Shown piece after piece: positions 35,846-51,148 of a stretch of DNA of 64,000 nt. This stretch comes from Hyaloraphidium curvatum (lineage: Eukaryota > Monoblepharomycota > Hyaloraphidiomycetes > Hyaloraphidiales > Hyaloraphidiaceae): NCBI GenBank assembly GCA_025558095.1, contig JAIVFI010000030.1, positions 372,001-436,000 of the forward strand, in the 5' to 3' direction. How positions within the stretch are numbered: position 1 is the first letter of the stretch; each line of letters begins with the position of its first letter. The position numbers and the translations under genes are program-made. The notes under the pieces are model-generated. The model saw nothing but the letters and a program-made list of their open reading frames with translations, ran no database searches and was not told where the DNA came from.

Positions 35846-38050
35846 CTACACCGTGGCGTCGGAAGCCCCGTCCGTCTCGTCCCCGACGTTACCGTCGTCA
35901 GACAGCAGGTCCGAGTACTCGGGCTCCTCCCCCCCAATCCCGCCGCTCGCCAGCAGGCCTGCGAGCTCCGCCGCGATCTCCACGAACGTGGGCCGGTCCG
36001 CGGGCTCCTGCGCCCACGCCCGCTGTATGAGGGCCCACAGCGGATCCGCCGCAATGCGGTACGGCCGTGGCGGGCGTCTTCCCGAGCGGACCAAAAATGC
36101 ACTCTGGCGGTGAAGTGAGCAGCGCGCGGGGATCCATCCCTGGCAGGACGTTACCGACATGAAACTGCCCCATCCCACGGAACGGGTACTCTCCCCCGCT
36201 TGTGACTTCGTAGCAAACCATGGCAAAAGAGTAAACGTCGCCGGGGGCCCGGAGCGGGTTCCCTGCCAATCGCTCGGGGGCCATAAAGGGAACCGTGCCG
36301 CCCGTCACACGGCTCGACTGGGAATCTGCGTCGTCGTCCTCGTACTCGTCTGCGGAAATGGTCGTTTCCGGATGAAGTTGCGCCAGCCCGAAATCCGCGA
36401 TTTTGGGGACGTCGTCGTCTGCGGGGGCCAAAATCACGGAAAAGCTGGGGCACCTCACCGGGTGCGCCTTACCGATCAGGATGTTCACGCACTTGAGGTC
36501 CCCGTGAAGCACGCCGCAAGAATGGAGGTATGCCATGCCGTCAGCAACACCTTTCAGGAAGCGAAGGCCGAGAGCCAGATCCCATCCCGCGGCCTCGAGC
36601 CGCTCGCGCATGTTGCCTTGGGGACAAAATTCGGTGATCGTCATCGGTGGGGATTCGCAGAAGGCAAGCAAAGGCATTACTGGGGAAGACGAAAAGGTCA
36701 GCTGGATGTCCCTGCTTCAACGCTGCTTACCGTTGCGCTGAGTGAGCCCTTCCCAAACGGCGATCTCGTCACGGAATGTCTTCAGCAGCCTTGGTTCCTG
36801 CACCTCCAGTTTTGGCAAGACTTTGACCGCAACCACTGTCACTCCTCGCAGTTTGCCACGAAAGATGGTGCCGAAGGCTCCATCGCCTATGCGATCCTCT
36901 TGCGAGTATGACACGTCCGTCGCATTGACTCTGAGCTTCGAAAGAAGGCCAGGCTGCCGGGGCAGGGGCAGCTGCGGCTCCGTTTGAACTATATCACGCT
37001 CCAAAAGATCTACAACCCCGTGTGCACCTTCAAAAAGTGGGCGATCGAAAGGGTCCACGTCGGTACAGATTGACATCAGGTGCCATGCTTGATCGTCGTT
37101 TGCAATCTCGTATGGACGAGACAGAGGCGACCCCTCGGCGATGCTCCGAACCCGATCCTGAGAAACATCGTGAGCCAACATGATGCCTCTCGCGAGATCC
37201 AAAAGTATACGAACCATGTTGGGCAGCTGTCCGCACGCGACCTCATAAGCGATAACGCCGAAGCTGTACACGTCGGCAGCTTTGCTGCGGGTTCCGGCTT
37301 GGGTTTGCAAAGCTTCCGGAGGCAAGTAGGCAGGGGTCCCCGCGGTCGACGTCCCTGCAAGATCACGCAACGTCGAGAAACCGAAATCGGCGACCTTGTA
37401 GATGCCACCGCGGATCATGATATTGGCCGGCTTCAAATCGCAATGGAGAATGTCCATGGAATGGAGATAACGCATCGCTTGGGCTACCTGGAGTAAGCAC
37501 TTCTTGAATCCAGGCATGGGGAACGTGTTCGGCCGCCCGGACTCCTTCAAGTCCTTAAGCACATGTTCCAGATCTCCACCGTCCGCGAATTCAGATACCA
37601 GCGCAAGAGGCTCGATGCAGTAGCCGAGGAAACGGAGCACTGCGCGAGAGAATGAGATGACGGCAAGAGACCCAGCCTCGGTGTCGCTGCACCGTTATCG
37701 TCCGCAAGCCTCTGCCAGTTTTCGACCTCCTTGACCAGCGCTGTTGCGAGAGTCCGTCGGTCGGTGCGCGGTCCCTCCTTCAGCACCTTGACTACCGCCG
37801 GCGTCACGCGGCGGAGCACCGCCTTGTAAGCGACACCGAAAGCTCCCTCGCCGAGCTTCCGGCGACGATGGGTGTCCGGATCCCGCTCAAACACAAAGTC
37901 TTTATCAAAAAAGAGCTCGAAATCGTGCGGCCTCGGCCGGACGGGGCTGGCTTCTCGTGCGGCACGCGCCCCGTGGCCCGGCGGCGGAGGGGTTTGCGGC
38001 GCGTCCGGCCGCAACGAATCCCGGCCACCGCCGGCCGAATCGTCGGCCAT
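35846..38050 (-). CDS. Tandem protein-kinase protein (two TKL-like kinase domains)
   Basis: Model complement(join(35846..36103,36159..36679,36731..37157,37215..37639,37693..38050)), 662 aa. Kinase 1 (about residues 55-330): LGEGAFGVAYKAVL, VVKVLKEG, HCDLKPANIMI, VADFGFSTLRD, GTPAYLPPEAL, DVYSFGVIAYEVACG. Kinase 2 (about 350-620): IGDGAFGTIFRGKL, VAVKVLPKLE, HGDLKCVNILI, KIADFGLAQLH, GTVPFMAPERLAG. Both lack the Arg of HRD but keep Asp, Lys, Asn and DFG, so activity is plausible. Kinase 1 is paralogous to the kinases at 47305-50770, with identical intron positions. The start is the ATG at the conserved MA[DY]D leader. Substrate unknown. Confidence 0.85.
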
Positions 38051-47126: not shown

Positions 47127-47149
47127 CCCCCCCCCCCCCCCCCCCCCCC
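47127..47149 (+). repeat. C23 homopolymer
   Basis: Twenty-three consecutive C residues between the oxygenase start and the kinase stop. The exact length is likely uncertain in the assembly. Confidence 0.95.
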
Positions 47150-47304: not shown

Positions 47305-48375
47305 TCAAACCTTGGCCATATCGGCAGTGCCGCTCTTTTGAGACAAGAAGGAAACTATGTCTTGAAAATGTGGTCGAAGGTATGGGTCGACATCCGTGCA
47401 CAGCGACATGATGTGCCAGGCCCAATCGTCGCTGGCAGTCTCGTACGGACGCAGCAGCGGCGTCCCCTCGGTCACGCTTCGAACCAGATCCTGAAAAAAC
47501 TGGTGAGCCAACGTCTTGCATGATCGGGAGATCCGAAGGTGCACCAACCATGACGGGCAGCCGCCCACAAAAGACCTCGTACGCAATCATCCCGAAACTG
47601 TACACATCACCGGGTTTGTCCCTTGGTGCCGGTGGACTTCGAAGCGCTTCCGGAGGCGTGTAACCAAAAGTTCCCGCTGTCGACGTCCCTGCAAGGTCGC
47701 GCAAAGTCGAGAGACCAAAGTCGGTGATCTTGAACTGGCCCCGGCAGATCAGGATGTTGGCCGGCTTGAGGTCACAGTGCAGGACGTTCTTTGAATGGAG
47801 GTACCGCATGCCCTGGGCCACTTGGAGCAGGCAGTCGATGCCACCTTTCCAAGGGAACGCGTGGGCATCGTTCACTCGATCCAGCATGCCCTTCAGGTCC
47901 CCTCCGTCCGCAAACTCATAAACCACAGCAAATGGATCCGCGCAGTAGCCATGGACTCCGAGAACTGCCGCGCCGGGAGAGTAAGCGGGGTGCGATGCTG
48001 TGCTCGCTCTCGAGGAATCTCACCGTTGTCGTCCCTGAGCAGCTGCCACAGCTCGACTTCCTTGGCCATCTCTTCCAGTAGTCTCCAGTGCGGCCCGCTT
48101 CGCTGGAGCCTTTTGATAGCTACAGGCGTATCGCGTCGAAGCTTCCCTTTGTAGACGACGCCAAAGGCTCCACTGCCGAGCTTCACGGGCTCCGACGTGT
48201 CCGGATCCCGATCCAATTCGATCTCATCGCGGTACGAGATCAAAAGGTCCGCGGGTTTCGGGCGGAACGGGCTAGTCTCCCGAACGGAGCTCCCCACGCC
48301 ACCCGGAGGAGCGAGAAACGGCGGCGCGTCCGGGAGGTCGAGATCCCCGCCATCGCGACCGGGATCGTAGGTCAT
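47305..48375 (-). CDS. TKL-like protein kinase (second kinase unit, possibly fused to the gene upstream)
   Basis: As a separate gene: complement(join(47305..47490,47549..47964,48024..48375)), 317 aa from MTYDPGRDGGD, which aligns with the N-terminus of the kinase at 50770. Motifs: LGSGAFGVVYKGKL, VAIKRLQRSG, HCDLKPANILI, ITDFGLSTLRD, GTFGYTPPEAL, DVYSFGMIAYEVFCG. Intron positions match the other two kinase genes. The reading frame is open for 161 codons upstream, in phase with the caspase gene, so this may instead be the C-terminal domain of a kinase-caspase-kinase protein of ~1061 aa. Both models are in frame; transcript data would decide. Confidence 0.78.
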
Positions 48376-50770
48376 TGCGGCGATCGAAACGTCAGTCATC
48401 GACCCCTCCAGAAGGAAAACTGGCTGCGATTCGCTGCCCACAACCATCATCGGTGCAACGTTGTAACAGGATACCACAGCGCCCTTCATAAAGGCAAACA
48501 CCATCTGGTGGGGTTGGTGCAGAAAAAGACCACTGGTGTTGTATGCCCGTTGATGTGGGCTAAACAGAAGCCGAGCCTGAACTACCTCCTTGTCTCCATA
48601 GAGCTCACTGGTCCGGCATAGTTCCAAAATAAGATCCACAGCAGTCCATTGCGACCGGTCACCGTGCCACGTCGTCCCATCTTCGAAGGTCATCTCGAGC
48701 TTGTATTGGCTCGTGAACAGGTCCTCCACGTACGCAGCCAATGGATAGGTCTGCTGGAGGGCGTCTTGGTTGTACAGTTCACTTGAGCGCTTCTGGAACG
48801 CTCCAGCAAGTCCTTGCACCACGCCTTCTATCGCATAGGACGATTTTGGATCAGGTCTCTGCAGAGCAGGTTATCGTTATCGCTGCGCCAGCTGTGCAGG
48901 GCCACGGACTCACAAGCTTGTGCGCTTCCAGGCCCAAGTCAACCTGTCCGTGTCCAAGATTCATGTGCCGTGGCTTTTGAACCAGAGGAGCGTTGGCCGA
49001 TTCCGTTCCCTGCGCCAAGCCTCGTGCTGTTGCCGTTCCCTCCACAATCCGGTCTCGGACGTCGTCCAAGAGCTCGCGCCACGTGAAGCTCTTGTCCTGA
49101 CGGTCAAAGCGCTTCCAGAGTTCCTCAGCTAGGACGAAGGTGTACAGGCACCCGTACGCTTTCTCCCCGTGCCGTGCAGCGAAGCCGACAACGACGTTGT
49201 TCCTGTCCACGTCGAAAGGTCGATCCTCTGTGCCCATGGATCCGCGACAGCAATCGAGGAGCACGACGACGAGGCCCCGGTGATCCGTGGGAATCTGGGA
49301 GATGATGTCGCGCTCCAGATCCACCGTGCTGTCCTCGGCCGGCACTTCACTTTCCGTCCCCGCCGAGGGTACTCCCTCGAACACGAATCGGCCTTGGCGA
49401 TCGCCTCCGTGTCCAACGAGGTGAACGATCGATGTTCCTGTAGCAGACCGCAAGCTAGAGAGAGCAGGGCGAGCGGCCGTCCGGATAGCGTGGGCACTGT
49501 GATCCGTCAACGGCTTCCCCGAGAACCCGTAGAAAAGCACCAGGACAGTCTGCAGGAGAGCGACGCTCTCAAGGGCCATCGGGAGGTTCTTTTCGTGTCC
49601 TGGCGGGCCGTAGTTCCTGTTCGCAACCTGGAGCAAAATACGATTCGATGCGTCTCCCGGCGGAGGAGCTCCACGTGGGGGGCCGATACCTCCCGCTTCC
49701 GACACACCGGTGTCCGTGAGGTCGGCGAGTAACTCGTCGAAGAAAGGGCGATCCAAAGGATCCACATCAGTGCAGATCTGGATCATGTGCCAGGTTTGAT
49801 CGTCGCCCGCTGTCTCGTACGGACGCCGCAGAGGCGTCCCGGAGCGACGCATCGCAGCAAAACGTAGGACCAAATCCTAGAGAGGGGAAGTGAGTCGAAA
49901 AGGACAGAGCCCGCGCGTGTGGAGGATACGCACGACATTTGGCACCTCTCCGCAAACCACCTCATACGCGATCACGCCGAAGCTGTACACATCCGCGTGC
50001 TTCCCTCGAGATGCCGGTGGAACTCGTAACGCCTCGGGAGGCATGTAGGCGGGAGTTCCTGCCGTCGACGTCCCAGCGAAATCTCGCAGGGTTGAGAAAC
50101 CAAAGTCAGCAATCATGTACGCGCCATTCCGAATCATGACGTTGGCCGGCTTCAGATCGCAGTGCAGAATGTTCATGGAGTGGAGGTACTGCATGCCCTG
50201 GGCCACTTGAAGCAAGCACTTCTTGAAACCAGGCATCGGGAACGCGTCCGGCCGGCCCGACTCCTTCAAGTCCTTCAGCACGCCCTGCAGGTCTCCCCCG
50301 TCGGCAAAATCCGATACCAGAGCAAGATGCTCGATGCAGTAACCATGGAATCGGAGAACTGCACGAGAGAATGAGAAGGGACGGGAGTCGTAGCCACGGA
50401 GTGTCGCACCGTTGTCGTGGGCAAATCTCTGCCAGCTTTCGACCTCCTTGACCAAAGCTTTGACGAGGCTCTGTCGGTTGGCTCCTGGACCCTCTTTCAG
50501 GACCTTGATGACCACCGGCGTCACTCGGCGCAGCATCCCCTTGTAAGCGACTCCGAAAGACCCCTCGCCGAGCGGCGGCGCGCGACGACCCTTGTTGGGA
50601 TCCCGGTCAAACAAGAAGTCCTTCTCGTAGAAAAGCTCGAGATCGAGCGGCTTCGGCCGGACGGGGCTAGGTTCCCGAGCGGGGCCCGCTGCGTAGCCGG
50701 GCGGAGGTGGCGGCGGCGGCGCGTCGTCCGGGAACGGATCCCCGCCATCGCCGCCGGGATCGTACGCCAT
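48376..50770 (-). CDS. Kinase-caspase-like protease fusion protein
   Basis: Exons complement(49934-50358, 50410-50770, 48914-49876 and 48858 downwards). The N-terminal kinase (residues ~65-330) shows LGEGSFGVAYKGML, VIKVLKEG, HCDLKPANVMI, IADFGFSTLRD and MPPEALRVPP. It is followed by a caspase/metacaspase-type p20: FYGFSGKPLTDHSAHAIRT, TGTSIVHLVGHGGDRQ with the His (about residue 418) and LVVVLLDCCRGSMG with the likely catalytic Cys (about 472, as in QACRG/DxCRG). Then comes a p10-like part (YTFVLAEELWKRFDR; TWRELLDDVRDRIVE). A 55-nt intron (48859-48913) extends it into RPDPKSSYAIEGVVQGLAG and a ~150-aa tail without a stop before the next kinase. Likely cytosolic signalling or regulated proteolysis; inferred only. 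Confidence 0.8.
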
Positions 50771-51148
50771 CGTGACGGAAGCGGTCGCCGGAGTGTTCCG
50801 GTGACACGCCCGGCGCCGGGCGCGCCGCTGCTGCGAGTAACGGGGAGCCGGAATGTTGTCTCGACGCGCGATCCCTGACAGCTCGATCACGCTGCCGAGG
50901 CTGTCACGCACTGCTTGATACCCGTCCACCACGACGAAACCCGTCGAAATAAGCTGATTGCTTCAAACGTGCTCGATCATGGACGTCTTGGGACTTTTTG
51001 GGTATGGGAGCTCGGAGCTGGGTTGCCATCGATGAAGCAACCTCGAGACCGAATACCGACCGAGATCGAGAGCGAATCGTCTCTTACTCGACTGCTACAG
51101 CTCCACGGCAACCTTGTCCAAGCATCCGCGCGGCACCTCCCCTCCCAA
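50771..51148. other. Intergenic region upstream of the kinase-caspase gene
   Basis: About 380 bp; contains the leader segment GTGATCGAGCTGTC...CGTCGAGACA (minus strand) shared with the tandem-kinase gene, and a diverged copy of the AATCAGCTTATTTCGAC string. Confidence 0.45.

Follow-up and report, generated by a model that had tools for sequence, protein, structure and literature searches.

A Hyaloraphidium curvatum gene that probably joins a caspase-like domain to two TKL-type kinases in a single chain

A 64,000-nucleotide (nt) stretch of a Hyaloraphidium curvatum contig, referred to here as the window, carries a gene at 50770-47305 on the minus strand; all coordinates are positions within this window. 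H. curvatum is a freshwater, unicellular fungus placed in Monoblepharomycota. The six exons of the gene join in frame to give 1061 amino acids and a stop, and the domain order of the product is a tyrosine kinase-like (TKL) type kinase (kinase 1), a peptidase C14 caspase domain, a region designated domain X, and a second kinase (kinase 2). From sequence, this architecture is very probably correct. The gene would then be one multidomain signaling protease from a family whose kinase-caspase-X core is joined to exchangeable C-terminal modules and whose protease is gated by a kinase, a combined reading to which we give somewhat less than an even chance. A preliminary description of this DNA had proposed exons that sum in frame and, in its one-gene version, a product of about 1061 residues, and all of its coordinates check. 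The features are as follows.

50770-50410, 50358-49934, 49876-48914, 48858-48024, 47964-47549 and 47490-47305, minus strand: exons 1-6, read from the sequence
50771-50870, minus strand: 5′ leader stretch like that of four related genes (C13a, C13b, C30k and the window kinase at 38050)
49715-50770, minus strand: kinase 1, TKL-type, residues 1-316, in exons 1 and 2 and the start of exon 3
48914-49654, minus strand: caspase-like (peptidase C14) domain and C-terminal extension, residues 337-583, inside exon 3
49409-49411, minus strand: putative catalytic His418 in HLVGHGG, invariant in 7/7 aligned sequences
49247-49249, minus strand: putative catalytic Cys472 in LLDCCRG, invariant in 7/7 aligned sequences
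48859-48913, minus strand: third intron, 55 nt, phase 0, between the caspase domain and domain X
48376-48858, minus strand: domain X and tail, 161 codons, conserved to about residue 716 and followed by 28 unconserved residues
48373-48375, minus strand: ATG heading kinase unit 2, a presumed fossil start; MTYDPGRDGG parallels MAYDPGGDGG of unit 1
47305-48375, minus strand: kinase 2, TKL-type, C-terminal, residues 745-1061, in exons 48375-48024 (part of exon 4), 47964-47549 and 47490-47305

The five introns are 51, 57, 55, 59, and 58 nt long, and all have GT...AG borders. The proposed fusion of a TKL-like kinase to a caspase-like domain bearing HLVGHGG and LLDCCRG is supported by Pfam and by profile searches of the Protein Data Bank (PDB). 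The first 583 residues matched Pkinase (5.7e-41), PK_Tyr_Ser-Thr (4.9e-37), and Peptidase_C14 (26.3 bits), the last above the Pfam gathering cut-off of 21.4 bits. Kinase 1 has a proline-rich N-terminal tip, a G-loop, the VIK lysine, a non-RD HCD loop, and DFG. It matched 58 PDB sequences at E <= 1e-20, of which RAF was best (3.9e-24); the matches are mostly RAF, B-raf, MAP3K9, TAK1, and KSR, with one EGFR and one Mer entry, and from the RAF, MAP3K9, and TAK1 relatives we take kinase 1 to belong to the TKL group. The second kinase unit matched Pkinase at 5.0e-42, keeps its active-site residues and an HCD loop, and ends at a stop at 47305. Both kinases have the usual catalytic residues. The family-type kinases seen have an HCD catalytic loop; that of the relative P0010 reads HFD.

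A peptidase C14 caspase fold was found. The domain alone scored 29.5 bits (7.3e-07) and the public protein model of the gene, P0001, scored 25.0; the cut-off was also passed by relatives P0002, P0005, and P0010 in a scan of seven proteins that leaves out the caspase part of C13a. The His418 and Cys472 motifs were also seen in P0010. The ratio of nonsynonymous to synonymous substitution (dN/dS, NG86) in the caspase domain is 0.11-0.19 in 6 of the 10 pairs formed by five genes, the other pairs being near synonymous saturation. The intact His-Cys dyad suggests that the family caspase is a putative catalytically competent protease. Against solved structures, nine chain sequences matched caspase profile A4 at E values of 7e-04 to 0.0025 and one at 0.043, all of them MALT1 or a homologue; the next match, unrelated, was at 0.068. 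The MALT1 paracaspase is therefore the closest solved relative by sequence profile, and it is also top-ranked by the structure model, although there the caspases are tied with it within 1 Z. In MALT1 and the caspase domain alike, the Cys lies within LLDxCR and the His within GHG. MALT1 has death and immunoglobulin-like domains and no kinase, whereas Pfam (E <= 1) found neither death nor immunoglobulin-like domains in P0001. MALT1 has three acidic S1 residues; among the corresponding positions, an Asp is invariant two residues ahead of the Cys, and the third position is not clearly aligned. Domain X has no significant Pfam match, and its low-confidence model suggests a helical start followed by beta-beta-alpha-beta-beta-alpha.

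A caspase-X query of the genome returned five loci (9 matches), the window gene and four others. The kinase-caspase-X core is constant, and the C terminus differs between members.

Window gene: a kinase of the family's own type
C13a: leucine-rich repeats (LRRs; LRR_6 6e-31, 5 stretches) in one 887-codon open stretch from domain X onward
C30k (P0003): ankyrin repeats (Ank_4 3.7e-08) plus a kinase of a different type (1.6e-32)
C13b: a tail without a Pfam match
C23: a short tail

The adjacent kinase had been described as a partner or a second domain, and it can now be placed as one of several C-terminal modules across the family. The next kinase gene after C13b carries, in its N-terminal linker, a nearly unchanged version of part of the C13b tail (GGHKLFGGLGNVFEHRK; L043, C13:564001-574000), a sign of module exchange between neighbors. 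Relatives were sought among 5.8 billion proteins, and in two of the searches scoring was confined to the 7996 and 7997 candidates with the most shared words. Outside P0001-P0005, only three proteins were among the matches listed, and each keeps the kinase-then-caspase order as far as it reaches.

P0006: JGI, 534 residues, 55% identity
P0007: JGI, 338 residues, 45% identity; by reading, it starts in an apparent kinase C-lobe end (Pfam gives C14 only, below the cut-off)
P0010: source code lgn, which we take to be Logan; 564 residues on a 96,558-base contig; 35% identity over the kinase, the caspase, and the YPLAAYVED motif of domain X

No prokaryotic or viral relative was confirmed. The locus is considered more than chance because there are four further caspase-X loci, relatives on other contigs, and low caspase dN/dS values. 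The family was not found in the literature searched and this kinase-caspase fusion is apparently new to it; caspase scores near or below the Pfam cut-off and truncated public models (P0003 begins inside kinase 1, and P0004 ends near the third intron) may explain the absence.

Several observations weigh against a protease built for signaling. The C14 score is below the cut-off in P0003 (18.1), P0006 (15.5), and P0007 (19.1), and a PF00656 search of the genome listed 3 other places, neither the window locus nor its paralogues. The structure model has a mean predicted local distance difference test score of 64.5, with values <50 in parts that include the stretch directly after the catalytic Cys. 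The aligned MALT1 position, which we take to be Glu500, is a Gly in the window gene, leaving its S1 preference uncertain, and 2 of the 5 members (C13b and C23) have no recognized sensor module. The three other PF00656 loci (L001, L002, and L003 on contigs C10, C4, and C23; 101.9, 37.4, and 26.1 bits) are probably ordinary metacaspases.

In the proposed mechanism, the C-terminal module (LRR, ankyrin, or kinase) would detect or recruit something, and the non-RD TKL kinase would be switched on by proximity or conformational change. The activated kinase would license the caspase-like domain by phosphorylation or release, and cleavage of a substrate by the protease would follow, perhaps on the C-terminal side of a basic residue. 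The two kinases of the window gene might act as an intramolecular pair. Gating of the protease by the kinase is plausible from the domain content, at a likelihood we set below even. The likeliest setting would be a stress, non-self, or cell-death response, and the predicted layout looks like that of a danger receptor; an immune role as such is doubtful.

The closest rival to kinase gating is a release switch, in which the constant caspase would cut its own chain and free the variable C-terminal module, here kinase 2, as the true effector. This has a modest chance of being correct. The portion of the EACC1 report available describes bacterial systems with a constant caspase and up to 50 alternative C-terminal domains, for which autoproteolysis is the proposed mechanism (PMC7159879), and the family shares the layout of a constant caspase with interchangeable C-terminal modules. 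The EACC1-type model NF047832 is the only NCBIfam match of the caspase domain (22.3 bits for the domain, 18.3 for P0001, and 25.7 for P0005), but none of the three reaches its cut-off of 140 bits. The 28 unconserved residues that separate domain X from kinase 2 would suit a release switch, whereas the C13a tail consists of LRRs and is sensor-like more than effector-like. EACC1 systems also differ in being bacterial and having a membrane partner, and no N-terminal TKL kinase is described in that portion of the report.

There is a similarly modest chance that the gene encodes a lineage-specific regulatory protease with no immune role, acting in growth, the cell cycle, or proteostasis. Metacaspases hold many non-death jobs, the organism is unicellular, and the genome contains 112 kinase matches at E <= 1e-8; the fusion may therefore be a product of module shuffling in general. 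On the other hand, variable tails with LRR and ankyrin modules are characteristic of detection systems, and non-RD loops, which are frequent in immune kinases, are present in every family-type kinase seen. The receptor repertoire of the genome was surveyed by a six-frame search that ignores introns. It gave 0 matches to NACHT or NB-ARC, and Pfam found neither in P0001. There are at least 41 LRR_6 matches. Thirteen LRR-kinase neighbor pairs were noted in the match lists, and six of these loci, chosen for an adjacent kinase match (L054-L059 on contigs C9, C12, C41, C6, C15, and C33), were read by eye; 6/6 have LRRs and at least the kinase N-lobe in one open frame. These loci join ribonuclease-inhibitor-like LRRs to a kinase, and one also has ankyrin-like repeats. 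H. curvatum may have a sizeable LRR-kinase repertoire.

The preliminary description found that one-gene and two-gene models both keep the frame, which still holds; the one-gene model now has comparative support from the intron site, the leader, and the public gene model, and we conclude with high confidence from these sequence comparisons that there is one gene of 1061 residues rather than two. The alternative, a 583- to 744-residue kinase-caspase(-X) gene adjoining a separate 317-residue kinase gene that starts at ATG 48375, is improbable, although the start of kinase unit 2 closely parallels the family initiator region, read-through into the third intron meets a stop after 20 codons, and the related kinase unit at 38050 lacks a caspase. 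There are zero in-frame stops between the third intron and kinase 2. This intron is the 55-nt consensus intron reported earlier, and exactly 161 codons lie between it and ATG 48375; these codons are open, as had been stated, but about 133 of them encode domain X, so the stretch is more than a simple linker. In 5/5 family members of the genome, an intron follows a Leu codon at the caspase|X border. Public models P0001, P0002, P0003, and P0005 use this splice, and the P0006 and P0007 sequences continue there into residues that resemble a translated donor site (VS and VC). A gene end inside the third intron is disfavored because the conserved domain X would be lost. Domain X dN/dS is 0.16-0.40 in 5 of 6 pairs from four genes; the sixth is saturated, and two others have a synonymous divergence (dS) >2.

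Only 84 nt separate conserved domain X from ATG 48375. A leader of about 100 nt is common to unit 1, C13a, C13b, C30k, and the 38050 kinase (z 2.9-16.5 over their ten pairs; positions -130 to -21, mononucleotide shuffles), but it was not found upstream of kinase unit 2 (z -1.2 to 0.8 against six other leaders). By BLASTN, chance-level words aside, the similarity of unit 2 to C30k begins just 17 nt upstream of the ATG, and its similarity to unit 1 begins at the ATG. ATG 48375 is presumed to be a fossil start, left when a neighboring kinase unit was fused, without its promoter, to the end of domain X. Three results cut the other way. The public model of C13a (P0004) lacks the caspase|X splice read here. 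The divergent member C23a also fails the leader alignment (z -1.4 to 2.4); since kinase 2 is thus not alone in lacking a recognizable leader, the leader evidence supports one gene but does not decide the matter. Finally, the 28-residue segment between domain X and ATG 48375 does not significantly resemble the tails of four paralogues (best 197/2000 shuffles). Kinase 2 is 56% identical to kinase 1, and the sister of kinase 1 is the caspase-less 38050 kinase (69%, support 99/99); comparison of these identities ruled out kinase 2 as a recent copy of unit 1.

The window product appears in a protein search as P0001, annotated 'kinase-like domain-containing protein [Hyaloraphidium curvatum]' and 1001 residues long. 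P0001 is a single gene across both kinases that differs from the 1061-residue reading at its 3′ end, where kinase 2 is truncated. Its last intron, deduced from the DNA, would be 47573-47503 with CT...AC borders (GT...AG when read from the plus strand), and an antisense transcript or an error of annotation could account for it. The canonical 58-nt intron at 47548-47491 instead restores the full kinase 2 C-lobe.

A caspase fold that is a non-catalytic scaffold, or a gene in decay, is very improbable: the weak C14 scores and the inactivity of about 70% of effector-position caspase domains in bacterial vWA systems, as given in the part of PMC7159879 available, are outweighed by the invariant His418 and Cys472 with their motifs in P0010, the low dN/dS in the six unsaturated pairs, the canonical introns, and the intact frame.

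Other known systems share parts of this architecture. Fungal type I metacaspases have the C14 fold and the H-C dyad, but the part of a review available gives them a proline-rich N terminus and a calcium-binding small subunit, whereas domain X and fused TKL-type kinases set the window gene apart. Fungal NOD-like receptors (NLRs) also combine an enzyme domain with C-terminal repeats in modular fashion, and protein kinase is among their listed domains in the portion of the survey available; the window protein differs in lacking NACHT/NB-ARC, and the LRRs present in C13a are reported absent from fungal NLRs in that portion, which also records no NLRs in chytrids (PMC4986451). As few as one NLR per species is given for Chytridiomycota in the accessible part of another report (PMC12258605). 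Among solved structures kinase 1 is nearest to RAF, then MAP3K9 and TAK1, which links it to the RIP, RAF, and MLK kinases of the TKL group. None of these kinases is known to carry a fused caspase fold; RIP kinases meet caspase-8 via adaptor domains.

The closest relative of kinase 1 lies nearby, and a homopolymer run follows the gene.

36195-38050, minus strand: neighboring related kinase gene (69% to kinase 1), with no caspase and then a different kinase; its second exon continues into the latter (HGDLKCVNIL), a kinase-kinase fusion
47127-47149, minus strand: 23-G run, shortly downstream of the gene

In animals, kinase-to-caspase signaling runs via several proteins and adaptors. Here both enzymes are in one chain, some members carry apparent detection modules, and the fungal branch has few reported NLRs. 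NLR-free, cytosolic all-in-one receptors might exist in Hyaloraphidium and in uncultured relatives that are probably zoosporic fungi; in these receptors a paracaspase-like protease would be gated by a non-RD TKL kinase, with exchangeable LRR, ankyrin, or kinase modules in control, a generalization that we regard as rather unlikely at present. If true, such receptors would have arrived independently at a counterpart of the RIPK-caspase axis, with both enzymes in one chain, and if kinase activity controls the protease, the coupling would be measurable directly in a single recombinant protein.
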